The translations under genes and the position numbers were made by a program. The notes below the pieces were generated by a model, which did not search any database, had not been told where the DNA came from, and was given only the letters and a program-made list of their open reading frames with translations. Shown piece by piece: positions 16,897 to 61,756 of a stretch of DNA of 64,000 nt; the stretch's first letter is position 1; each line of letters starts with the position of its first letter. The stretch is taken from positions 1 through 64,000 of the forward strand of contig JALPMN010000644.1 in NCBI GenBank assembly GCA_024243835.1. The letters run 5' to 3'. This DNA is from Enteropsectra breve. Taxonomy: Eukaryota; Microsporidia.

Positions 16897-18156
16897 ATGA
16901 GTCTTAAATTGTCGAACACTGCCACAACAATCACACTGATGGTATCGACATTTGGAACAGGAATCCTCCTTATGCCGACGGTATTCAGGAAGTTGGGATA
17001 TGTCGCCGGAATAGCTGCTATTGTATTTGTTGCAGCCCTGAACTATTTTACGCTGTACTCCCTGGCGTACAGTGCACACTCTATGGAAGTGCCCAGAACA
17101 GCCAGCTTTACGCTTATAGCCAACACAATTTCGCCACTTCTCAAAAATGCTGCTGATATTGCGATGATCGGCTCTAATCTCGGTAACGTTTTCTACACTT
17201 TGAAGGCATTCCTCGATACAACAGAGTCTCTTGCTATAAATGTTTTTGGAATGGATGCGACTCATGGCATTAATTTCATGAGGATTGTGCTTGTAGTCCT
17301 TCTATCTGCGCTATTTTTCTTCTTCATACAGGAGGATCTCTCTGCGCTCTCCTTTATTTCTAATATCGTGGTAGTCAGTGTCGTTTACTATCTTGGCCTT
17401 GTTATCTACTTTGCGCTCGGACACGGAGTTGAGTTTGATTCTCTTACGAAATTCGACAAAGATGGCATTGACTCCGTTGTTAATATTGTATTTGCCTTGC
17501 ATGCCCAGTTTGCCTATCTCTCTATTTTTACGAGTATGAAAAGCAATAAGATGGCAGATGTGAAGAAGACACTGTCTATCGCTACTTCTCTTCTTGTTGT
17601 CGTTTACAGCTTCTCGGGATTTTTCGGCTACTGGGCCACCGGAAAAGTTATGAATGATAACTTCATTAAATTCCTGAATTCTGATGACGCAAAGCCGCTG
17701 GGTTTCTACCAGTCAATGATGAATCTTCCTATGGATAACAAGGGAATCTTGCGCACTATCCTTAATGTCGGCTTTTTAGTGGTCTGGTTTGGAGGCCTCA
17801 TTTTTGCAACAGCCCCGATCATCACCATCGTTTCTTCATGGGTGTCAGTTGGAAAGGCCAAGGTTGATCGCAAAATTGTGTCCTTTGGAATGTGCCTGTT
17901 TTATCTCGCCATGGGAATATTCCTAACATCAGGAAAAGCACAAATTGATTCTATTTTGACGGTATTTGCTGCCATATTCACGAATTCGCTCAGCTATGTC
18001 TTCCCAAGCATATTCATGATGTATGTGAGCCGCAGGGGAAGTGCCAACTATCTGATTTCAGGTTTCGCTATACTCTTTTCACTGCTGTTTGGTGGATTTG
18101 TGATCAAGAATTTAATAACCGAAATCCAGAAGAAGTCAAATGCAAAAATAGATTGA
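16897..18156 (+). CDS. Amino acid transporter (AVT/SLC38-type)
   Basis: The protein is 419 aa with about eleven hydrophobic spans. The N-terminal MSLKLSNTATTITLMVSTFGTGILLMP is typical of the Aa_trans superfamily first helix with its conserved G-T-G-I unwound segment. This predicts a proton-coupled neutral or cationic amino acid carrier in the vacuolar or plasma membrane. Microsporidia depend on such carriers to take amino acids from the host cell. The start is marked by CACCCC two bases before the ATG and AAAAATTTTT before that. Substrate cannot be inferred. Confidence 0.85.
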   Translation: MSLKLSNTATTITLMVSTFGTGILLMPTVFRKLGYVAGIAAIVFVAALNYFTLYSLAYSAHSMEVPRTASFTLIANTISPLLKNAADIAMIGSNLGNVFYTLKAFLDTTESLAINVFGMDATHGINFMRIVLVVLLSALFFFFIQEDLSALSFISNIVVVSVVYYLGLVIYFALGHGVEFDSLTKFDKDGIDSVVNIVFALHAQFAYLSIFTSMKSNKMADVKKTLSIATSLLVVVYSFSGFFGYWATGKVMNDNFIKFLNSDDAKPLGFYQSMMNLPMDNKGILRTILNVGFLVVWFGGLIFATAPIITIVSSWVSVGKAKVDRKIVSFGMCLFYLAMGIFLTSGKAQIDSILTVFAAIFTNSLSYVFPSIFMMYVSRRGSANYLISGFAILFSLLFGGFVIKNLITEIQKKSNAKID

Positions 18157-23444: not shown

Positions 23445-24590
23445 TTATTGTGTCTCCTTAAATATTGCATAGTGCCCATGGTGATACTGTGCCGTATAAA
23501 AATACTTCATCCACTCTATCAGATTATCCGTTTTAAATATCTCTGGATGAATCAATCTTTCTTCAACTTCCTCGATCTCTTCATTTGAAGCTTCCAGTTT
23601 CTCCTCTCTGCTCGCATTGAAATCATCAAATAGAATGTTCTTCAAATATAGATACTGTGAGGGGGCCTTTGGGATATGCTGCTCGGTATCGAATGCCTTC
23701 TCAAAGTTTTCTTTAATCGCGTTAGGTGAGTATTTGCAGAGAAGAACTGCAAAGGATATCATTTTTCTTATTTGGTGGAGCAGAAAGCTCTGCCCATGTA
23801 TTTCTACCCGCACATATTCCACGTTGTTTATGATAAATGGCTCAGAAACATTTATCTCCTTCATGTATCGTTTGTGGTCACCTGCAGCTTTTTTAACCGT
23901 AAAATTTTTATAGTTCTTGGTTCCAACATAAAGCATCATCGTTTCTCTGAAAAGCTCTGTATTTTTAGACTTAAACCCAAAAATATCTGAAATATCTTCC
24001 AGTTTGCAGTCTCTCATTATAATTTTCTTCTTCTTTTTTTCGGTAGTTCCTGTTTCAGGTTCATTTTTGCAGCTCTTGTCATTTATACCGCTTTCTGAGC
24101 ACGCCTCGTCTGCAGCCTCCTCGCTGCTTGAGGCTTCTACCTCTGCAGCCACTTTAAGATCCTCCGCCTCTCTTTTCAGATATTCACTGGTAAAATCTCC
24201 TTTTTCCAAAAAATATGTTGGCACGTAGTAGCGGTATATTCTGGAGCGTGCCAGTCTGTGCCCCGTGAAGCGCTTGGGAACACGGCATATTTTGTACAGG
24301 TGGATGCTGTGCTCCGCCAGTGTTGCCTTCAGCCGTGCGAATATCTCAGGGGTTGGATCGGTGTTTATTTTGACATTTATGACATTGAATGCAGCATGCA
24401 CACCCTTGTCGGTGCGTGACGAAGCTTTCATGTCTATCTTTGTGGGGATGTTGTTCAGCGGATTGAGGAGCTCATTCTTCATTAGTGATTCTATAAGAAC
24501 CTTTTCGATGGTGTGCAGCTCGTTGTTCCACTGAAGGCCAAAATACTTGGCCCCACTGTATCCGATAATCATTGCTATTTTTCTCTTCAT
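23445..24590 (-). CDS. PUS1: tRNA pseudouridine synthase PUS1-type (TruA family)
   Basis: The protein is 381 aa. It opens with the TruA-family strand RKIAMIIGYSGAKYFGLQWN, then the catalytic motif ASSRTDKGVHA with nucleophile Asp61. HGQSFLLHQIRKMI lies in the second half, as expected. An acidic, Ser/Glu-rich insertion at about residues 150-190 separates conserved blocks. It isomerises uridines in the tRNA anticodon-stem region and possibly in U2 snRNA. The ATG follows TATCCAC. Eukaryotic Pus1 and Pus3 are hard to tell apart by eye; length and insertion favour Pus1. Confidence 0.85.
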   Translation of the reverse strand: MKRKIAMIIGYSGAKYFGLQWNNELHTIEKVLIESLMKNELLNPLNNIPTKIDMKASSRTDKGVHAAFNVINVKINTDPTPEIFARLKATLAEHSIHLYKICRVPKRFTGHRLARSRIYRYYVPTYFLEKGDFTSEYLKREAEDLKVAAEVEASSSEEAADEACSESGINDKSCKNEPETGTTEKKKKKIIMRDCKLEDISDIFGFKSKNTELFRETMMLYVGTKNYKNFTVKKAAGDHKRYMKEINVSEPFIINNVEYVRVEIHGQSFLLHQIRKMISFAVLLCKYSPNAIKENFEKAFDTEQHIPKAPSQYLYLKNILFDDFNASREEKLEASNEEIEEVEERLIHPEIFKTDNLIEWMKYFYTAQYHHGHYAIFKETQ

Positions 24591-29735: not shown

Positions 29736-31271
29736 TTAGTGATTCTCAGGTCTCATCGCAGGGAAGAACAGCACATCCCTGATGTTGGCTGCATTAGTCA
29801 GGTACATAACAAGCCTGTCGATTCCAATGCCGCATCCACCGGTTGGGGGCAGTCCGTAGTCCATGACCTGGCAGAAATCCTCATCCACAGGCATCGCCTC
29901 CTCATCGCCCGCATTTGCATCCTTTGCCTGCATCATGAAGCGCTCTCTCTGCACCTGTGGGATGTTCAGCTCTGTGTACGCATTGCACAGCTCCTTCGAG
30001 TTAACAAACAGCTCAAAACGCTCCACAAGTCCGGCCCTGTTTCGGTCGTGTTTGGCCAGTGGCGAAGTTTCTGTTGGGAAACCAACAACAAATGTCGGAT
30101 TGATGCACTGTGGCTCAATATACTCGCCAACAAACTTGTCAAGCACACGGCTGAGAGTCAAGGGCTTCTCCATCTTGAGATTCCTCTCTCCGGCAACTTT
30201 AATCAGAAGATCCAGAGTTTCTTGGTTTGAGATATTCTCGCCCGTTAGTTCGATATTTAATATTTTGCTGAGTTCCGTTAAAATATCAATTCTCTTGAAA
30301 GGCAGTGAGAAGTCAAGGGGAGTGGCACTGAGAGACTCTTCTCCACGCTTTGCAGGCTCGTAGTTGAACTTCTCAGAGCCCTTTATTTTAATGGCCAGTG
30401 TATTGAGAATCTTCTCAACATGCTCCATCATGTCCTGATAATCCGCATACGCCTGATAAAACTCAACACTCGTAAACTCAGGGTTGTGTGTCAAATCAAT
30501 GCCCTCATTTCTGAACTGCTTTCCAAGCTCATAGACCCTGTTGAATCCGCCAATAACCAGGCGCTTGAGGAACAGCTCTGGCGCAACCCTCATAAAAAGA
30601 TCCTGCTTGAGCTCATTGTGGTGCGTTTTAAAGGGCTTTGCTGCTGCTCCGCCGTGGATGCTGTTCATCATCGGTGTCTCCACCTCCATAAAATCACTGC
30701 CGTTCAGATACTCCTTGATGTAGTTTATTATTTTGGTTCTGTTGATAAAGCGCTCGCGGGAGTCTTTGTTTACCAGGAGATCCAGGTGCCTCTTTCTGTA
30801 AATAGTTTCAGGGTTGCTCAGTCCGGTCTTTGCAGAGGGAATCACCTTCAGGCACGGTGCCAGGAGAACAAGCTCATCGAGAAATACGGATGGCTCGCCG
30901 GTGCGTGACTTTCCACAGCATCCGCTGAAACCAACGATATCGCCTCTTCGGATGAAATTTGCGACTTTGTAGATCTTTTCATCGCCCTTGTTCAAAATAA
31001 GCTGCAAATCAATGCCGTCGCTTTCCACGGTAAAGAAAAACAGCTTTCCGTGGCCTCTTATGGCTGTTATTCTGCCGGCAGACTGCACCTTGTCCTCACC
31101 CTGTGTATTTGCCTCGTATTTATTTGCGGCGTTCTTTATATTCTCTAGCTTGTCTTTCACTTGATATTTGTGCGGGTATATCTCCATGCCTTCTGCAATT
31201 GCCTGTGCAATCTGCTCTTTTCTCTGGGCACTGAATTCTTCTTCTGACAGTTCTTTTTCAACCTTTGCCAT
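29736..31271 (-). CDS. KRS1: Lysyl-tRNA synthetase, class II
   Basis: The protein is 511 aa. A short charged extension precedes the OB-fold anticodon domain (SAGRITAIRGHGKLFFFTV). The class II core follows: motif 1 around FMEVETPMMN, motif 2 FRNEGIDLTHNPEFT, and motif 3 GGCGIGIDRLVMYLTNA near the end. It charges tRNA-Lys in the cytosol. Base composition is distinctly GC-richer than the surrounding spacers. AATTTTTATTCCAT precedes the ATG. Confidence 0.95.
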   Translation of the reverse strand: MAKVEKELSEEEFSAQRKEQIAQAIAEGMEIYPHKYQVKDKLENIKNAANKYEANTQGEDKVQSAGRITAIRGHGKLFFFTVESDGIDLQLILNKGDEKIYKVANFIRRGDIVGFSGCCGKSRTGEPSVFLDELVLLAPCLKVIPSAKTGLSNPETIYRKRHLDLLVNKDSRERFINRTKIINYIKEYLNGSDFMEVETPMMNSIHGGAAAKPFKTHHNELKQDLFMRVAPELFLKRLVIGGFNRVYELGKQFRNEGIDLTHNPEFTSVEFYQAYADYQDMMEHVEKILNTLAIKIKGSEKFNYEPAKRGEESLSATPLDFSLPFKRIDILTELSKILNIELTGENISNQETLDLLIKVAGERNLKMEKPLTLSRVLDKFVGEYIEPQCINPTFVVGFPTETSPLAKHDRNRAGLVERFELFVNSKELCNAYTELNIPQVQRERFMMQAKDANAGDEEAMPVDEDFCQVMDYGLPPTGGCGIGIDRLVMYLTNAANIRDVLFFPAMRPENH

Positions 31272-36551: not shown

Positions 36552-36974
36552 ATGAAAATTGTCATCCAGCATGTGGATGGCGCAACAGTGAGGCATGAAG
36601 AGGAAATAATCGCAAAAATAAGCAAGGGGGCTGTTTTGTATGTGGGATTTGAGCGCGGAAAAGAAAATGGCGAATTTGGAGAAATAATCAAACAGCTTGA
36701 CTTGCTTTTAGGGAGCGATTTCTTAGCCAATAAGAGCCTGCTGGTTCTGAGCCAGTTTACGTTATTTGGAAAATATACCAAGAATAAGCCGTCATTTCAC
36801 AATGCAGAGGAGCATGCGATTGCCAAGGACTATTTTAACCGCTTTTATGACCAGATCAAAAAATATCATGGACAGACTAATGAGCGTTGCGATATACAGA
36901 GGGGAATATTCGGATCATATTTGCAGATAGAACTTGAAGGCAAAAACATGGACCCAATTCTTGTCGAGTACTGA
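36552..36974 (+). CDS. D-aminoacyl-tRNA deacylase (DTD) subunit with SQFTL but no Gly-cisPro
   Basis: The protein is 140 aa in the DTD fold: MKIVIQHVDGATV, LYVGFERGK, then the active-site motif S67-QFTL-71, NKPSF (78-82) and GIFGSYLQIEL. DTD removes D-amino acids (and glycine from tRNA-Ala) mischarged on tRNA. The second signature, normally NDGPVT and forming the Gly-cisPro chirality filter, reads NMDPIL (132-137), so the glycine is absent. A second DTD-like gene 1.3 kb away (38304-38654) has the opposite set of motifs. AAATTTTATCCTCTA precedes the start. Confidence 0.85.
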   Translation: MKIVIQHVDGATVRHEEEIIAKISKGAVLYVGFERGKENGEFGEIIKQLDLLLGSDFLANKSLLVLSQFTLFGKYTKNKPSFHNAEEHAIAKDYFNRFYDQIKKYHGQTNERCDIQRGIFGSYLQIELEGKNMDPILVEY

Positions 36975-37119
36975 AGAACAATTAAAGCTTTTTATATTCG
37001 ATATTTTTTATTCATGGAAGAAGAGTGTGTAAATCAATGAAACTGCCTCAAACTTATAAAACAATACGTCTGTTTCTATCGATGTTAATTTAAACTTTAA
37101 ATTAGCAAAGAAAAAACAA

Positions 37120-37191
37120 TGGTTCTACCGAGATTCGAACTCAGATCGCCGGATTCAGAGACCGAAATGCTAGCCATTACACCATAGAACC
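37120..37191 (-). tRNA. tRNA-Gln (CUG)
   Basis: Acceptor GGTTCTA pairs with TAGAACC. The D-arm (GGTGTAATGGCTAGCA) and T-loop GTTCGAATC are standard, and the anticodon loop CTCTGAA gives CUG. The anticodon stem has one weak T-T apposition. There is no intron. The sequence is close to other eukaryotic tRNA-Gln genes. Confidence 0.9.
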
Positions 37192-37367
37192 ATAAAAAAG
37201 ATTTATAAAAAGGAATACATAAAATTTAGTTTTAGTTTTGTTTAAATAAAGCAAAAGTATAAAAATGAGTCAGACAAATTGTGATGCTTTGTATGCACAC
37301 GAGACAATGAAACACAAAGGCACACATAAATATATAACATTTAAGCCATTTAATAGCTCGTTGTCAT

Positions 37368-38117
37368 CTATACAAATATATTTTGGTGTTTTCTACGAAA
37401 TATTTTCAGCTTTTTGATGCATCCTCTCGGATCAACGATAAACTCCCTTGATGTACTTCTGCAGAGCCACAAAAACACGTAGTAGACATTGAGCAGCAGT
37501 GAAAACAGAAATAAAATGGCAATTGCAGATCTATAAATAACAGTGCTGACTTTAAAAATATCAGCAAAGACTTTTCTATTAAAACTGAGATTGACAGGTC
37601 TGGTTGAGAAAATTAAACTATAGCACATTACTCCCAGAAGACCAGAAAGGCTTAAAATATAGCAGTAGTAGGCATGCAAGTTGTTCTTGCCGATGCATGT
37701 CCCAAGTGCGCCGCAGTGGTGGTCCTTCTCTAAAATACACGCATTGCAAATGGTGCAGTGTGCAACTCCCCTTGGCCTGTATATTTCGCAGGAATCACAG
37801 TATTTTCTTAGTGGCTCCAGCCGTTCCATTAGAATGTGAAGCACCTGCTCACTTTCTAACAAGGATGGATCGGTCATGTTCTCTTCACTGGAAACACTAT
37901 CTGGGCACTCACCTGTTGAACCTGATCTTACCGTTCCTGGTGATGTAAGAATTACATTGTAAAGCGCAACGGTATTTACCATAATTAGTGTGAAACAGAA
38001 ACTGACGCGCTGATAAGTGAAATCGCTGCTTGCCAGGCAGTGCAGGGCTGACATGTACAGCAGAAGATGGAGTATCAGGCTAAACTTGTACCGACTCTCG
38101 CTTTTTGCTTCCCACAT
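37368..38117 (-). CDS. DHHC-type protein S-palmitoyltransferase
   Basis: The protein is 249 aa. Two hydrophobic spans (about 13-30, 38-57) precede the Cys-rich domain (C107-x2-C110, HCTIC-x2-C), which holds the catalytic DHHC at 132-135. Two more spans follow. The residues after DHHC are GALGTCIG rather than the common PWVNNCVG, so that part is diverged while the cysteine is kept. It attaches palmitate to cytosolic cysteines at ER, Golgi or plasma membrane. A CCCCC run lies about 40 bases upstream of the ATG. Confidence 0.9.
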   Translation of the reverse strand: MWEAKSESRYKFSLILHLLLYMSALHCLASSDFTYQRVSFCFTLIMVNTVALYNVILTSPGTVRSGSTGECPDSVSSEENMTDPSLLESEQVLHILMERLEPLRKYCDSCEIYRPRGVAHCTICNACILEKDHHCGALGTCIGKNNLHAYYCYILSLSGLLGVMCYSLIFSTRPVNLSFNRKVFADIFKVSTVIYRSAIAILFLFSLLLNVYYVFLWLCRSTSREFIVDPRGCIKKLKIFRRKHQNIFV

Positions 38118-38303
38118 GTTCTGTGGAGTGTTTCAGGTTTTACCTGTAAAAGGGGGTTATTTTAAAGATCCAATCAAAATATTCTATGGTATTCAAATAT
38201 TCTATGGTATTAAAATAACAAGACCACTTGAATATCAAAACATAATTTAAATCTATTTACTCCCTGTTTATAAAGACTTTCTTATATTCATCATAGTTTA
38301 GCT

Positions 38304-38654
38304 CTAAAAGTCCAAAATAAAGGTACAAGGGCCGTCATTCACAAACTTGAAGTTATCGCCTGGGGCAACGATATGAATATCTTTTATTTTCTCTGAAAAT
38401 ATGCGAATTATTGAATTTGCATCTTCTATCTGTAGATTTAACTGCGGCTTGAGGATCAGCGCATGGCTCTTTTCTGCAAGGCTTTCTGTCCAGCTTTCAT
38501 ACATTTTAATTCTGGCTATCTTATCTCTAATTCGTTCCATCATAGCTGTGCCCATGACTTCATTCTCCTTGTTCTTCATAAAAGCAACAGCTCCTCTCCC
38601 CACTGCACAGTTTTGTGTTTCTGCACTTGTGAACTTCTGCAGAATTATTTGCAT
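38304..38654 (-). CDS. Second DTD-like protein keeping the Gly-cisPro motif only
   Basis: The protein is 116 aa and aligns with DTD from the first strand (MQIILQKFTSAET) to the last, which reads FKFVNDGPCTFILDF. It retains NDGP (106-109), the Gly-cisPro loop that DTD inserts into the partner subunit's pocket. The active-site strand normally reading SQFTL is LKPQLNL here (68-74), and the following PSF segment is deleted. On its own it should lack a normal pocket. It is therefore likely a regulatory or completing partner of the DTD at 36552-36974, or a decaying paralogue. GAGCCCCTG precedes the ATG. Confidence 0.65.
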   Translation of the reverse strand: MQIILQKFTSAETQNCAVGRGAVAFMKNKENEVMGTAMMERIRDKIARIKMYESWTESLAEKSHALILKPQLNLQIEDANSIIRIFSEKIKDIHIVAPGDNFKFVNDGPCTFILDF

Positions 38655-46787: not shown

Positions 46788-48680
46788 ATGAAGCACAAAG
46801 AATATACACGACAAATCAACAGTAAAAATAATAGTCTTGCAAAAGATGAATCGCTAGATGGAATGGAATTTACCGAATCAAACCGCATCAAAAAAATGAT
46901 ATTGCCCGATTCTTTTGACATTGCGATGTTACATGAAATAATAAGAATGCGCTATGAATACGGTAGATTTACTGGGAAACATTACATAACGGATGAAAAA
47001 AAGTTACACGACTTGCTATACTTTTATAATTATTTAGATTTTCAGGCAAATATAAAGTTCACGAGACTTGGCGAACAGACTCTTCGAAGAACTGATGTAA
47101 ATGTAGATAGAAATACAGCGTTTGCAATAGAAATTGTGTTTAGTCTTGCCTCATACGGACGCTTGGATCATTACAAAAAATTACTAACGGTATATGACAA
47201 TATCGACACAAGTCTTTCAGGAGAACTCATTCCCGTTAAAAAAGATCTTAATTTAAATGTAACACCATGCAGTCTGGACAGAGAAGTAATACAGCTATTT
47301 AACAAACTGCCTATCGCGAAGGCGGCAATTATAATGGCCTCAATTAATGAAAAAAAAGATATTGTGGTAAAACACCCAGATTTTAAAATAATTCAGCGTA
47401 TATCGATTGACGAAAAAGCATGCACGGTGATAAAAGAGAAGTCTAATAATTATGAAATAGACTTAACCCGCATGCCAGTGTTTCGAGAACAGCCGGAGGT
47501 TTTGGTTATCATGTTGCCTGTTCATAATATCACAGAGTATTTCAAATTCATACGCAACTACTTGCGTTTGACAGATAGTATTGAGACTATAGAAATTATT
47601 TTTCATGATTCAGAGCGTATTAAAAAGTACAAATTCGGAACTGATGTAGATATAAATGTACAAGTCTTTATAGGATGGGTAGTCATGTATTTTCTTGCAA
47701 ATGAGATAGTTGATAAAAGACCGAAAATCCGCAACTTCGGTATATACGGGTATGATCAAATTGACAGCCGTATACTTGCCGCCCTCTCTCAAATCCCATT
47801 GCAAAGTCTTTCACTTCTTGGAGCAGATTCAATGCTCGATTATTTTTATATATTTAAGCTTTTCGATTCGGCAAGCCAGCTTAAGTCGAATATCCAGGAG
47901 TTTGCAGGCACATTTGGCGCAGCTGTTTTACTCAATCAGCTTGTTCCAGAAAGACAACTCAAGGTACTGAGGGTATCCAAGCATATGCAGTTTAAGAAAA
48001 CAAACATCAAAATGATTAAGGAAGATCCGTGCTATGACCGACTATCTGCGTATTTCGAGAACAGAGATTTGTCTTCACTTCCCATGGCATGCTCCGCTAA
48101 AGGTGCAACGAAAAAACTTGAAGTTCTTGAAATATTCGTATTTCCACCTGTTCCAAAGTTTTATTCCCCTGCGGACTACAATAAAACATCAAAAGCTAAG
48201 GCGGAAATAGCCAAAGAAATAACAGTAAGCGAAGATGAGATACAGCAAATGGTCACACTATGCAAGCCCTCAAACTTCAATCTAATTGATATTGATGTAG
48301 AAAAAAAGAACACGAATGAAGCTATTCTTACTATAGAGAACTACGATTTAAACATGACCAAACGCATCCTTAAAGAGGTGGATCTTATTAAGAACAAAGA
48401 TGTACTTATTATTGAGTATCTAAGACCGGTGTGCTTCAAGAGGTATTATACTCGCAGCCTGGAAAAGAAAGATCTAGTTGATCTTTTAGTTGGGGTGTTC
48501 AGAAAATGGATAGCGGAGGATAAAAGCGAAAAGCACATGCTTATTTTTAAAGTGGCAGAAACCAAAGTATGCGAATATTTCTGGAGGAAAATATTTATGT
48601 GTGCATGCGAAAAGCACTGGTCGAATACTAATTTCGAAAAATGGCTGAAAAGGGTTACTTTCATCAAGATTTTAAAATAG
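46788..48680 (+). CDS. Unknown, possibly LRR-like intracellular protein
   Basis: The protein is 630 aa with no signal peptide. The middle to end shows leucine-spaced strands (LQSLSLLGADSMLDYF, LKVLRVSKHMQF, LEVLEIFVF) suggestive of irregular leucine-rich repeats, a feature of expanded microsporidian families. The gene is AT-richer than the housekeeping genes nearby. It stands between the two large secretory paralogues at 43.6 and 49.5 kb. No CCC/GGG motif touches the start; the nearest CCC is about 35 bases upstream. Function unknown. Confidence 0.65.
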   Translation: MKHKEYTRQINSKNNSLAKDESLDGMEFTESNRIKKMILPDSFDIAMLHEIIRMRYEYGRFTGKHYITDEKKLHDLLYFYNYLDFQANIKFTRLGEQTLRRTDVNVDRNTAFAIEIVFSLASYGRLDHYKKLLTVYDNIDTSLSGELIPVKKDLNLNVTPCSLDREVIQLFNKLPIAKAAIIMASINEKKDIVVKHPDFKIIQRISIDEKACTVIKEKSNNYEIDLTRMPVFREQPEVLVIMLPVHNITEYFKFIRNYLRLTDSIETIEIIFHDSERIKKYKFGTDVDINVQVFIGWVVMYFLANEIVDKRPKIRNFGIYGYDQIDSRILAALSQIPLQSLSLLGADSMLDYFYIFKLFDSASQLKSNIQEFAGTFGAAVLLNQLVPERQLKVLRVSKHMQFKKTNIKMIKEDPCYDRLSAYFENRDLSSLPMACSAKGATKKLEVLEIFVFPPVPKFYSPADYNKTSKAKAEIAKEITVSEDEIQQMVTLCKPSNFNLIDIDVEKKNTNEAILTIENYDLNMTKRILKEVDLIKNKDVLIIEYLRPVCFKRYYTRSLEKKDLVDLLVGVFRKWIAEDKSEKHMLIFKVAETKVCEYFWRKIFMCACEKHWSNTNFEKWLKRVTFIKILK

Positions 48681-49540: not shown

Positions 49541-52195
49541 ATGGATGCAAAATTCAAAATCTTGCATGCCATTTTTATCGCAGGTCTAATGCTGGGCGTA
49601 GGCATTATTGTTTGTGGCTTTTCGCCTCGCAGGTGTGGCAGAAATTTCATTAATCCTCCAAGATATCATTGCCCAGAACGGAGAAACTCATCTAGCAGTG
49701 ATGAACTTGAATCTATAATAAACGTTGAAAGCGAAATGAATAATTTCGACGATTCTATCCCATCAGATGGCTGTAATAACACAGACGGTGTGAGTTCAAA
49801 AAATGTAGATCAGACTTCAATAATGGCGCGTCACTGTGAGAAATGCAAAAAGCCTATGCATGAGAAGCTATTTCCTGTTTCTTTCGTATTGGAGAAGATG
49901 ATGGGCGTTTCCTTGTTTCCCTCTGAAAAACAAGATTTCATACTAACTGACTTACACGCAATTGTATCTTCCAATGAAGTCTCGTACCATCGAGATTGTT
50001 TTGTAAAAACCAGTTATGAAAATTCAATGAATAGGAATTTTGGAATGCTTTTATTCGAAGGATTATCGGGCAGGAATCCATCTTCTCTTAATGATGAAGG
50101 AATGGTGCTTATATTTGAGCATTTGACAAAGAGCACCAAATCATATGAATTTGCGTATATCTACAAACAACTACAAAAATCTAAAACCGATATCTTTTTG
50201 TTATTGGAGAGCAATAATCCAGACATTTCTTCTATTGAAAAGCTTAGAGAAAATATTGAGAAATGCAAATTTAAGGGGCGAGAATATTTGCTTGCAGGGC
50301 TAGAGTGCTATCTCCTTGAAAATGAAATGATTCTCGAACAGGATTTTTCTATTGAAACTGCTATGTGCAGCTACTTGAAATACTTTTTAGTAGATTCAAT
50401 GGAATATAAAATTGACACCTGGATTACATTCGCACATACAAGCCGCTGCGAAGAAATTATGAGAAAATCCATATTTACAATCGCAGAGAGCCTTAATAAG
50501 GATGAAAGAAAGCGTAACAGAACTTTTTTCGAAGAAATTCTGTATTGCTTTATTGATAGGTGTGGCTCTTTAAATGCTAAAAAATTTATTTTTAGCTGTA
50601 TGCTATCTAAGCACTATTATATTCTTTTCTGGATAAAAACCCCTTCTGAAAAACACAACCTTTCTCCAGCGCAGTTGAAAGCTTTCAAGACAAGGATCCC
50701 CAAACCCTTTGAACTATTGAGTACGGTAGAAAGCATCTTTAGAAGCAGCACCGCCCACCCTTTTTTGAGCGGGAGTATTGATGATAAAGCAAGGGCCATA
50801 GCACAATGCATAGGATTCAAGTCATTGGGTTTAAAAGGAAGTGATTTGATAATGTGTCTTATTTACATTAAACGAATGTATAAGTTCACTGAGGCAAGAG
50901 GTAATGGCAACCAGCAATTGGGTTATCGCAATGTAAAAGAATATTTAAACTTCTGCAAAAGCATTATTCTTTATCTCCTGGAAAATATGAATTTTATAGT
51001 TGAAGCCAAGCATCCTATTTTGAAGATCTGTATGTTTTATAATAGAAGGAATAAGCACAAGATGCACCAGAGCTTATTCCTAGCCCACTTAATCAGAAAT
51101 TTAGATCTCAGCCCGCAATCCAAGCGAATGAATAATGGGTCTTTCTATAGCCATTTGTCAAAAGAAGAATTTGATGAAATGCTGCTCCTAAGAGCATTAA
51201 ATTGCAATAACTGTGTGATTTTTGAAAAAAGAGATGTTTCGTTATACGAACAAGCTGATTTATCTCTGGCAAATGTGTTGGTTACAAATGGAAGATTGCT
51301 GAAGCTTGAAGCATTGGAACTTGTGACTCAATTTTGTAAAAAATTCGTTTCCCTTGAAGAGTACAGGCAATTTTTACATGATATTTGCTTTTCCAGACAA
51401 CTGCCTGAATGTACTTTGGATGAGAATATCTTGGATGATCTATATGATAGATCTAGGGGATATGAGCGTGCTGAAACAGGCTTCTTGCCCTTACTGCCAA
51501 AATTTTATACTTTGCTCAACTGCAAGAATTGGTCTGAAGAAGAAGTTCTGAACTGGTGTGAGAAAGTAAACTTTTTAGATTTTCTTCAAGAAAAGATCGA
51601 TACCAGATGTGGTGATAGCCCATTCCATTTTGTTAAGAGGCACTTTAAAATCCTATTAAAGTATCTACTGGATAAAACAGCAGATTTAACTTGTGTTAAG
51701 AAACAGGCTGAATTAGTTGTGGCATGCTGGAAGAACGTCTACTATGATGATTATGAGTGTGCTATAAAAATATTTGAGAAACTGGCGTCGGTGAGGAATG
51801 GATACTACCACGCCAACATATTTTTCTTAATGAACCGCAATGAACTTGGGTCTGCGTTGGCTGGACAAGTACTGAAAAAAATAGGCGATTCCAAGCACTC
51901 GACTGAAAGTAGTGTCTTAGAGACGCAGAAAAAGTATGTAAAATTTATAAGGACATGGGAAGAGACAGACTTGGTTTTAACAAGCGATTCAGATGAGCTG
52001 ATTGAAGTAGTAGACGCGGTTGTGGATAAACTAGCGAGAATCAAAGACACTCAATTAGACGGCATTTTTGCGGATTTTGTGATGCATGCTTCTTCACTCA
52101 ATGAATTCAGCAAAAATCAAAATGCCTTCTACAAAAAGATGATTGAGTCGTTAGACTTTATTCCTCAGGCAGCAGTGGATTTGTATGCCCAATAG
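49541..52195 (+). CDS. Large secretory-pathway protein, family A paralogue
   Basis: The protein is 884 aa. It begins with a hydrophobic leader (ILHAIFIAGLMLGVGIIVCGF) that is a signal peptide or anchor, then an acidic Ser/Asn-rich linker. A finger-like segment (C-x2-CKKPMHE ... YHRDCFVK) parallels the protein at 43591-46125. The long helical body shares blocks with that paralogue, including SEEEVLNWC, HANIFFL and the C-terminal FYKKMIESLDFIPQ. Family and function are unknown. TCTGAGCCCTTAAGAAA and an AAAATTTT block precede the ATG. AT content is high for a gene here. Confidence 0.8.
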   Translation: MDAKFKILHAIFIAGLMLGVGIIVCGFSPRRCGRNFINPPRYHCPERRNSSSSDELESIINVESEMNNFDDSIPSDGCNNTDGVSSKNVDQTSIMARHCEKCKKPMHEKLFPVSFVLEKMMGVSLFPSEKQDFILTDLHAIVSSNEVSYHRDCFVKTSYENSMNRNFGMLLFEGLSGRNPSSLNDEGMVLIFEHLTKSTKSYEFAYIYKQLQKSKTDIFLLLESNNPDISSIEKLRENIEKCKFKGREYLLAGLECYLLENEMILEQDFSIETAMCSYLKYFLVDSMEYKIDTWITFAHTSRCEEIMRKSIFTIAESLNKDERKRNRTFFEEILYCFIDRCGSLNAKKFIFSCMLSKHYYILFWIKTPSEKHNLSPAQLKAFKTRIPKPFELLSTVESIFRSSTAHPFLSGSIDDKARAIAQCIGFKSLGLKGSDLIMCLIYIKRMYKFTEARGNGNQQLGYRNVKEYLNFCKSIILYLLENMNFIVEAKHPILKICMFYNRRNKHKMHQSLFLAHLIRNLDLSPQSKRMNNGSFYSHLSKEEFDEMLLLRALNCNNCVIFEKRDVSLYEQADLSLANVLVTNGRLLKLEALELVTQFCKKFVSLEEYRQFLHDICFSRQLPECTLDENILDDLYDRSRGYERAETGFLPLLPKFYTLLNCKNWSEEEVLNWCEKVNFLDFLQEKIDTRCGDSPFHFVKRHFKILLKYLLDKTADLTCVKKQAELVVACWKNVYYDDYECAIKIFEKLASVRNGYYHANIFFLMNRNELGSALAGQVLKKIGDSKHSTESSVLETQKKYVKFIRTWEETDLVLTSDSDELIEVVDAVVDKLARIKDTQLDGIFADFVMHASSLNEFSKNQNAFYKKMIESLDFIPQAAVDLYAQ

Positions 52196-60163: not shown

Positions 60164-61756
60164 TTAATAGATTCTTCTGATTACTGATTTTTCAGGCGTA
60201 TCTTCAATCGCAAAGTTAATTTTCTTGGCCTCATCTCTCACCACATCAGAAAGCTTAAAATACAAACCGGCATCCGCCTTAGAACGTGCGGCCTTTCGCA
60301 CCGCTGCCCTAAAGCTGTTCAGCAGCTCTGCAAGCTTCTCCTCCTGAGATCCTGCGTCCTTTGTTTCGTGCTTCAATCCAAATACTCCAAGCATCTTCTT
60401 GATGTAGCTGTATCCAACACTTAATACGTCAGAATGCACATCCTTCATTGCCTGGTTAAGCGATGAAATAAGCTCTAGCATTAATTCAAGTGCCTTTGGT
60501 GTGTTGAAATTGTTCAGCAGTGCTGAATGAACGCCCTCTTTAGTGGCATTGATTTTAGCTCTGATTGTTCTGTCCATTTCGCTCAAAGACCCCTTGTCAT
60601 TTCTCTTGATATTCTGCTCTACGTTTGAAATGAAATTGTAGATTTTCTTTCTAGTTGCCTCGGCCTCTACCAACTGGTCCTTGTCGTAGTTCATGTCGCG
60701 GTTCCACTGGTGCTGTAAAAACAGAATTCTCATGCCCTCGACTGAGACTTTCTCAAGAATCTCGCCGATGGTCCAGAAGTTCTTCAGAGACTTGGACATT
60801 TTGAGTCCGTCAATCTTTAGATGCCCAGTGTGCCAGAAGTAGCTCACCCACTTCTCGCCAAAGTGTCCCTGGCACTGGGCCACCTCGTTCTCGTGGTGCG
60901 GGAAGGCGAGATCGATGCCTCCTGCGTGGACATCAAGCTTTGAGCCAAAAATACTGGCTGCCATCGCCGAGCACTCGATGTGCCATCCGGGTCTTCCAGG
61001 GCCCCATTTGCTCAGGTATGTCGGCTCGCCCTGCTTAGAGGCCTTCCAAAGCACGAAGTCTTCCTTCGATATCTTCTCCTCAATCGCCATCTGCTTCAGT
61101 ATCTCGCTGATGTTGTCGATCTCCTCACTCTCCTTTGGCATCTCTGCTGCCTTAATATCGTTGCTGTTTTTAATTTCGTTGCTGTTTTTAATATTCTCGT
61201 TGCTGTTTTTAATATTCTCGCTGCTGTTTTTAATATTCTCGCTGTTCTCAGCTTCCTTGGCAACTGTTTTTGGGCGCAGAAGATTGTAGCTGAATTCAGC
61301 CTTGTATTTTTCAAGATTAAAATAAATGCTTCCATTCGACTCGTAGGTCAATTCACGGCTCTCAAGCTTCTCAATAAAAGCCAGTATTTCCGCAATATAC
61401 TCCGTCACGCGTGTGGTGTAGTCGGGCCGGAGGACATTCAGTCTGTCCATCTCGGTGAAGAACTCGTCCTCATATTTGTCAGAGAGCTCATTGCAGCTGA
61501 TATTGCGCTCTGCTGCGCGTGTTATTATTTTATCATCGATGTTTGTGATGTTCATTACAAGCTCTACATCGTAGTTAAAATAGTCTTTTAAAACTCTTCT
61601 TATTACATCGAAGGAGAGGTATGTCCTTGCATGTCCGATGTGTGGGGAGTCGTATACTGTCGGCCCGCATATGTACATCTTTATTTTTCTTCCATCCTGA
61701 AGAACTAGTTTTTCTGCTTTCTTAGTCAGAGTATTATAAACAACTGGTGTTTCCAT
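60164..61756 (-). CDS. CRS1: Cysteinyl-tRNA synthetase
   Basis: The protein is 530 aa, class I. The zinc Cys30 is in YICGPTVYD, HIGH lies at 39-42, and WHIECSAMA carries the second zinc Cys (262). FPHHENE has further ligands (287-289), and KMSKS is at 319-323. It charges tRNA-Cys. Residues 171-200 are a low-complexity insertion of about four heptads (SENIKNS/NENIKNS), encoded by a 21-base tandem repeat. It lies on the edge of the connective domain. TTTTTACCCCT touches the ATG. Confidence 0.95.
   Translation of the reverse strand: METPVVYNTLTKKAEKLVLQDGRKIKMYICGPTVYDSPHIGHARTYLSFDVIRRVLKDYFNYDVELVMNITNIDDKIITRAAERNISCNELSDKYEDEFFTEMDRLNVLRPDYTTRVTEYIAEILAFIEKLESRELTYESNGSIYFNLEKYKAEFSYNLLRPKTVAKEAENSENIKNSSENIKNSNENIKNSNEIKNSNDIKAAEMPKESEEIDNISEILKQMAIEEKISKEDFVLWKASKQGEPTYLSKWGPGRPGWHIECSAMAASIFGSKLDVHAGGIDLAFPHHENEVAQCQGHFGEKWVSYFWHTGHLKIDGLKMSKSLKNFWTIGEILEKVSVEGMRILFLQHQWNRDMNYDKDQLVEAEATRKKIYNFISNVEQNIKRNDKGSLSEMDRTIRAKINATKEGVHSALLNNFNTPKALELMLELISSLNQAMKDVHSDVLSVGYSYIKKMLGVFGLKHETKDAGSQEEKLAELLNSFRAAVRKAARSKADAGLYFKLSDVVRDEAKKINFAIEDTPEKSVIRRIY

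Follow-up and report, generated by a model that had tools for sequence, protein, structure and literature searches.

Known D-aminoacyl-tRNA deacylases (DTDs) are homodimers in which one chain carries both motifs of the active site. The PfDTD pocket combines the SQFTL motif of one subunit with the NXGP(V/F)T motif of the other, and Thr90 is tethered to Thr152 across the subunit interface; the Gly-cisPro loop, reported to be invariant among DTDs, proved essential in both enzymes tested (PMC3845328, in the part of the paper available). According to the same part of PMC3845328, G149A, P150A, F137A, and A112F abolish the activity of PfDTD, and equivalent changes abolish that of E. coli DTD; the S87P, Q88A, F89A, and T90A variants remain active, S87A is partly reduced in PfDTD, and Pro is also found naturally at position 87 in DTDs. 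Arg7 has been described to lock the loop of its own subunit, and ATD, which has a Gly-transPro arrangement, to have gained activity on L-Ala-tRNA (PMC5802732, available part).

The closest known systems include DTD/DTD1 (PF02580, TIGR00256), ATD, and the N-terminal editing domain of archaeal ThrRS. ADAT2/ADAT3 is an obligate heterodimer with one live site, in which one subunit is catalytic and the other completes the site, but its fold is unrelated to that of DTD. No DTD counterpart of such a one-site heterodimer was found in the literature searched, which included the available parts of PMC3845328, PMC5802732, PMC13273367, PMC6321566, and PMC7017984, and the sole "heterodimer" in the available part of PMC11295145 is PheRS; to this extent, the literature agrees with an earlier note on this DNA, which knew of no described DTD of this kind.

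Two DTD relatives in one window

The window, i.e., the whole stretch of 64,000 nucleotides that was analysed, is part of a 3.96 Mb assembly of 155 contigs, the SSU rRNA of which is microsporidian (RF02542 match at full length, 882 bits, top of its clan). Protein A (140 aa; MKIVIQHV...LVLSQFTLFG...NKPSFH...RGIFGSYLQIELEGKNMDPILVEY), encoded at 36552..36974 on the plus strand, is by its sequence clearly related to DTD; its acceptor pocket is intact, and it has no Gly-Pro loop. Its PF02580 score of 75.5 bits (E 7.1e-21) exceeds the gathering score of 25 bits, and its TIGR00256 score of 53.5 bits falls below the 101.5 equivalog cut-off of that model, which was built for bacteria and archaea.

Protein B (116 aa; ...ALILKPQLNLQIEDANS...APGDNFKFVNDGPCTFILDF), encoded at 38304..38654, is read on the minus strand only, as the plus-strand frame at this place contains stops; it is a very divergent DTD relative in which the Gly-Pro loop is present and the adenine-stacking Phe is absent. 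It reached 15.8 bits with PF02580 (E 0.018), below the gathering score, and had no match to TIGR00256. The full-length alignment of B with DTDs beat 3000 of 3000 shuffles and 222 of 222 real-protein segments (z 6.5 and 6.6), and this bears out its kinship to DTD, which the earlier note had presumed; because the local HMM scores were weak (4 of 5000 shuffles scored at least as high as B, and 14 of 5000 with a profile that included A), it is the global alignments that carry the case. The top scores of B were with vertebrate DTD1, and its identity to a Plasmodium DTD was 22/114. A search with the B sequence against the PDB gave weak unrelated matches only (best E 0.39), and a single-sequence AF2 model was uninformative (pLDDT 35), with two PDB matches at E 9.6.

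Two other identities of B were considered and rejected. A chance ORF was ruled out by coding bias (A, 0.266 bits/codon; B, 0.212; 24 long ORFs, mean 0.169 and lowest value -0.056) and by ORF-length statistics, as a Markov sequence of 64 kb should hold 1.1 ATG-ORFs of at least 116 aa and 48 were observed. ATD, a candidate prompted by the PQ of B and by its ending, was set aside with a global z of 2.9 for mouse ATD versus 9.3 for human DTD1; unlike ATD, B has PQLNL rather than PQATL, NDGPCT rather than TNGPYTH, and Lys rather than Gln at position 7, and A has SQFTL rather than PQATL, no GP, and His rather than Gln at position 7. PF04414 (DTD2/GEK1-type) was absent from the Pfam matches of both proteins at E up to 10.

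Pocket and loop residues in proteins A and B

On the plus strand, A carries the SQFTL motif (PfDTD positions 87-91) at 36750..36764 and, by alignment, the KPSF segment (positions 100-103) at 36786..36797 and the equivalent of Phe137-Gly138 at 36909..36914, a pair to which the available part of PMC3845328 assigns adenine stacking and the 2'-OH. Phe137 and Ala112 are both kept, as are all three residues at 103, 112, and 138, positions that lie below the invariance cut-off used here; Leu in place of Met141 is the single miss in the pocket of A itself. Where the family has NDGP, or close to that position, A has NMDP (36945..36956, plus strand) and no Gly-Pro. MAFFT sets GKNM, not NMDP, in the NDGP columns, whereas a 2-residue gap lets the N and P of A match these columns, with D standing for G; Gly-Pro is missing under both alignment readings.

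In B, PQLNL (38433..38447, minus strand) falls on SQFTL in three alignments (profile, human pairwise, and 39-row), whereas a 5-row alignment instead sets KPQLNL against KPDFHL; the pocket of B is damaged under both pairings. APGD (38355..38366, minus strand) stands at the family's xFGx in the 5-row alignment, so that Phe137 is missing, position 137 being Pro in this alignment and a gap in another; Ala is aligned at 112, and the KPxF loop is absent. The loop that a partner subunit would borrow is present as NDGPCT (38322..38339, minus strand; NxGPVT in the family), with Cys at 151. The motif inventory of the earlier note (SQFTL and PSF kept and NDGP gone in A, NDGP kept and SQFTL and PSF gone in B) is thus confirmed, with the refinements that the NDGP columns of A may hold GKNM, that B lies on the minus strand, and that the pairing of PQLNL depends on the alignment. 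One step in it needs amending: PQLNL by itself is not decisive for loss of the pocket of B, since activity can survive the replacement of SQFTL side chains. The absence of Phe137 and of the KPxF loop makes the better argument, and Phe137, which the earlier note did not mention, is the more telling loss.

Both N-x-GPVT and SQFTL were present in all of the 80 DTDs, bacterial by title, that were retained of 356 matches in genome contigs, and S87, Q88, F89, T90, P101, F137, N147, G149, P150, and T152 were invariant in alignment A4 across its 37 canonical rows. For a tally, the 30 columns in which at least 35 of the 37 canonical rows agree were assigned, post hoc and with the finding already known, to the subunit's own pocket (n=8; 87-91, 101, 137, and 141), to the lent part (n=7; 7 and 147-152), or to neither (n=15). 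A keeps 7/8, 0/7 (2/7 with the small gap), and 10/15 of these residues, respectively, and B keeps 2/8, 5/7, and 5/15. By the hypergeometric distribution, A is depleted in lent residues (0.0008, or 0.043 if the 2-residue gap makes N and P kept) and has an excess of pocket residues (0.047), and for B the enrichment in lent residues is only suggestive (0.068) and the shortage of pocket residues is not significant (0.28), although the counts are non-independent because each loss is mostly one or two contiguous stretches. The cross-subunit pair Thr90-Thr152 survives solely as Thr90 of A with Thr152 of B. Position 7 is His in A and Lys in B, so that Arg7 is gone from both. A also lacks 11 alignment columns before the SQFTL strand (ENGKxxxSVxD-like; gap at 36726-36731, residues 59/60), and B retains a Trp-containing version of this segment, WTESLAEK, a further complementary difference.

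A candidate composite site and competing explanations

Like DTD/DTD1, the two proteins together have the SQFTL/KPSF/FG pocket (A), the NxGPxT loop (B), a predicted cross-subunit site, and probably the fold, for B according to an alignment-driven model; unlike DTD/DTD1, they have pocket and Gly-Pro in separate chains, with Gly-Pro absent from A and Phe137 and the KPxF loop absent from B. Since mutation of the Gly, the Pro, or the adenine-stacking Phe abolishes both PfDTD and E. coli DTD, A/A and B/B dimers are both predicted to be inactive; with A/A lacking the lent loop and B/B the adenine pocket, only a site that combines the A pocket with the B loop would be complete. From the sequences, the DTD alignments, and the split of kept and lost residues, all of them observed, we infer heterodimerisation, activity, and substrate, and propose as a plausible but tentative reading that A and B form an obligate heterodimeric D-aminoacyl-tRNA deacylase with a single composite site per dimer. 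A would provide the pocket, i.e., the SQFTL strand with the oxyanion hole, the KPSF loop, Ala112, and Phe137-Gly138, and would bind A76 of the tRNA, and B would lend its Asn-Asp-Gly-Pro-Cys-Thr loop in trans, capping the pocket and rejecting L-amino acids. The reciprocal site, made of the B pocket and the KNMDP loop of A, would be dead, so that an A/B dimer would have one whole site and one dead site.

With the same reserve, it is conceivable that in a microsporidian lineage DTD, a chirality checkpoint that is otherwise homodimeric, has become an obligate heterodimer of a pocket subunit and a loop subunit. If true, the distribution of pocket and loop over two chains would be a natural dissection of how the DTD site works, the change from a homodimer to a one-site heterodimer in a eukaryote with a reduced genome would be an unusual case, and the finding would bear on whether mistranslating parasites still police the chirality of amino acids. 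Consistent with a split enzyme, B has diverged very far and yet keeps the lent loop, which would have no obvious use unless a working pocket exists elsewhere; each protein seems useless alone by the known rules, yet each is open, coding-biased, and in possession of much of the half that the other has lost. Also in its favour are the counts of kept residues, the surviving Thr90-Thr152 pair, Lys at position 7 in B where A has His, the lack of a third DTD among the matches reported in the assembly, and the editing domains described below. The change of Met141 to Leu and the 11 missing columns in A, as well as the loss of Arg7 in both proteins, argue against it.

A split enzyme is also called into question by the chance that, if each copy randomly lost one half, complementarity would arise half the time, and by the very long end branches (3.73 changes per column for A and 7.87 for B), which also fit relaxed constraint. 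Both observations would also suit two decaying relics in a mistranslation-tolerant parasite that is losing DTD function, with the differing halves accidental, as would reports that microsporidia lack a LeuRS editing domain and that Vavraia culicis mistranslates strongly (PMC7017984, available part). We nevertheless regard such decay as unlikely, given that both frames are open with a coding bias above the mean of the 24 long ORFs, that a CCC element lies directly ahead of the ATG of B, and that A retains nearly the whole pocket. Moreover, judged by its genes, aminoacyl-tRNA editing is not generally lost in this genome: the tRNA_SAD domain is kept in genes matching AlaRS (416 bits, below the 457 cut-off) and ThrRS, and a 1133-aa frame contains a PF13603 (LeuRS-type editing) match (G000:C28:11188-11604; positions 52-181 of 185, 34 bits), in contrast to the loss of LeuRS editing reported for microsporidia in that part of PMC7017984. 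A deacylase of the PF04414 type was not reported in the assembly.

It also appears improbable that A is active by itself, in a homodimer whose loop has been rebuilt as KNMDP and whose stereospecificity has perhaps changed, and that B is a DTD-fold pseudoenzyme in another role. While A has the whole pocket except Met141, and the Gly-transPro of ATD, with its L-Ala-tRNA activity, sets a precedent for altered loop geometry (PMC5802732, available part), ATD still has Gly-Pro, loss of either residue is fatal in the G149A and P150A mutants of PfDTD and their E. coli equivalents (PMC3845328, available part), and the kept NDGPCT of B would be left unexplained. Finally, a sequencing or assembly error in the loop of A, with A then being a normal DTD homodimer and B a degenerate copy, is very unlikely, as, although by eye the loop codons could derive from a Gly-Pro stretch with two nearby offsetting indels and another frame at this place reads His-Gly-Pro, this would take two errors that cancel out within the space of a few codons, the in-frame tail ILVEY is by eye closer to the family's last strand than that of the other frame, and His7 and Leu141 are separate departures in A.

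Ancestry, relatives, and genomic setting

In the tree, B was nearest to vertebrate DTD1, unsupported, and a clade of A and B was neither supported nor rejected (p-AU 0.258). As the tree decides neither way, the two proteins may stem from a gene duplication or from two separate DTD lineages. Of the interpretation in the earlier note, the loss of a different half in each protein stands, with the residues that matter united only in the A-pocket/B-loop combination, and the derivation of both from one duplication is a possibility. A recent duplication was considered and rejected, as no repeat detected between 35500 and 40500 links the gene for A with that for B.

In the assembly, A was the sole match reported by a PF02580 family search, which missed B, so that another gene as divergent as B could be overlooked; within this scope, and with a search with B that gave only B, no third DTD-like gene was found. 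Codon sites resembling N-[N/D/S]-G-P-x-T numbered 4 in the assembly besides B, versus 3 in a reversed-pattern control, and lay in frames of 23-37 codons. In the protein collection, the relatives found were B itself for B (3 candidates) and A itself and one Streptococcaceae DTD for A (9 candidates); a profile built from A and the Plasmodium and human DTDs gave 7904 matches among 7992 candidates scored, and the named organisms among the 120 listed of these 7904 were vertebrate, Plasmodium, or Hepatocystis. No relatives of A or B were found in viral contigs. A microsporidian relative of either protein, or any relative with both losses, was found in none of the protein collection, viral contigs, and genome contigs, an absence that says little because the search depends on shared exact words. 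DTD seems to occur in microsporidia, as a Nosema ceranae gene is annotated as D-tyrosyl-tRNA deacylase in an expression table (PMC13273367, available part).

The A and B genes lie on opposite strands about 1.3 kb apart, separated by genes for tRNA-Gln and a DHHC palmitoyltransferase, and do not form an operon. Of the 24 long ORFs, 13 have an AAATTT element within 40 nt upstream of the start codon (background 0.061), and 11 have a CCC element within 20 nt upstream (0.099 at random places); window ORFs that exemplify these elements are at 16897, 33124, and 60164, and the sequences upstream of A and B are AAAATTTTATCCTC and GAGCCCCTG, respectively. Two long ORFs, at 49541-52195 and 46788-48680 (plus strand; 884 and 630 aa), had no Pfam match at E 0.001. 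The window also contains translation genes for a tRNA pseudouridine synthase, a class II synthetase (D/K/N type), and a cysteinyl-type class I synthetase (23445-24590, 29736-31271, and 60164-61756, all minus strand), as well as three tRNA genes at 37119, 40660, and 59829.
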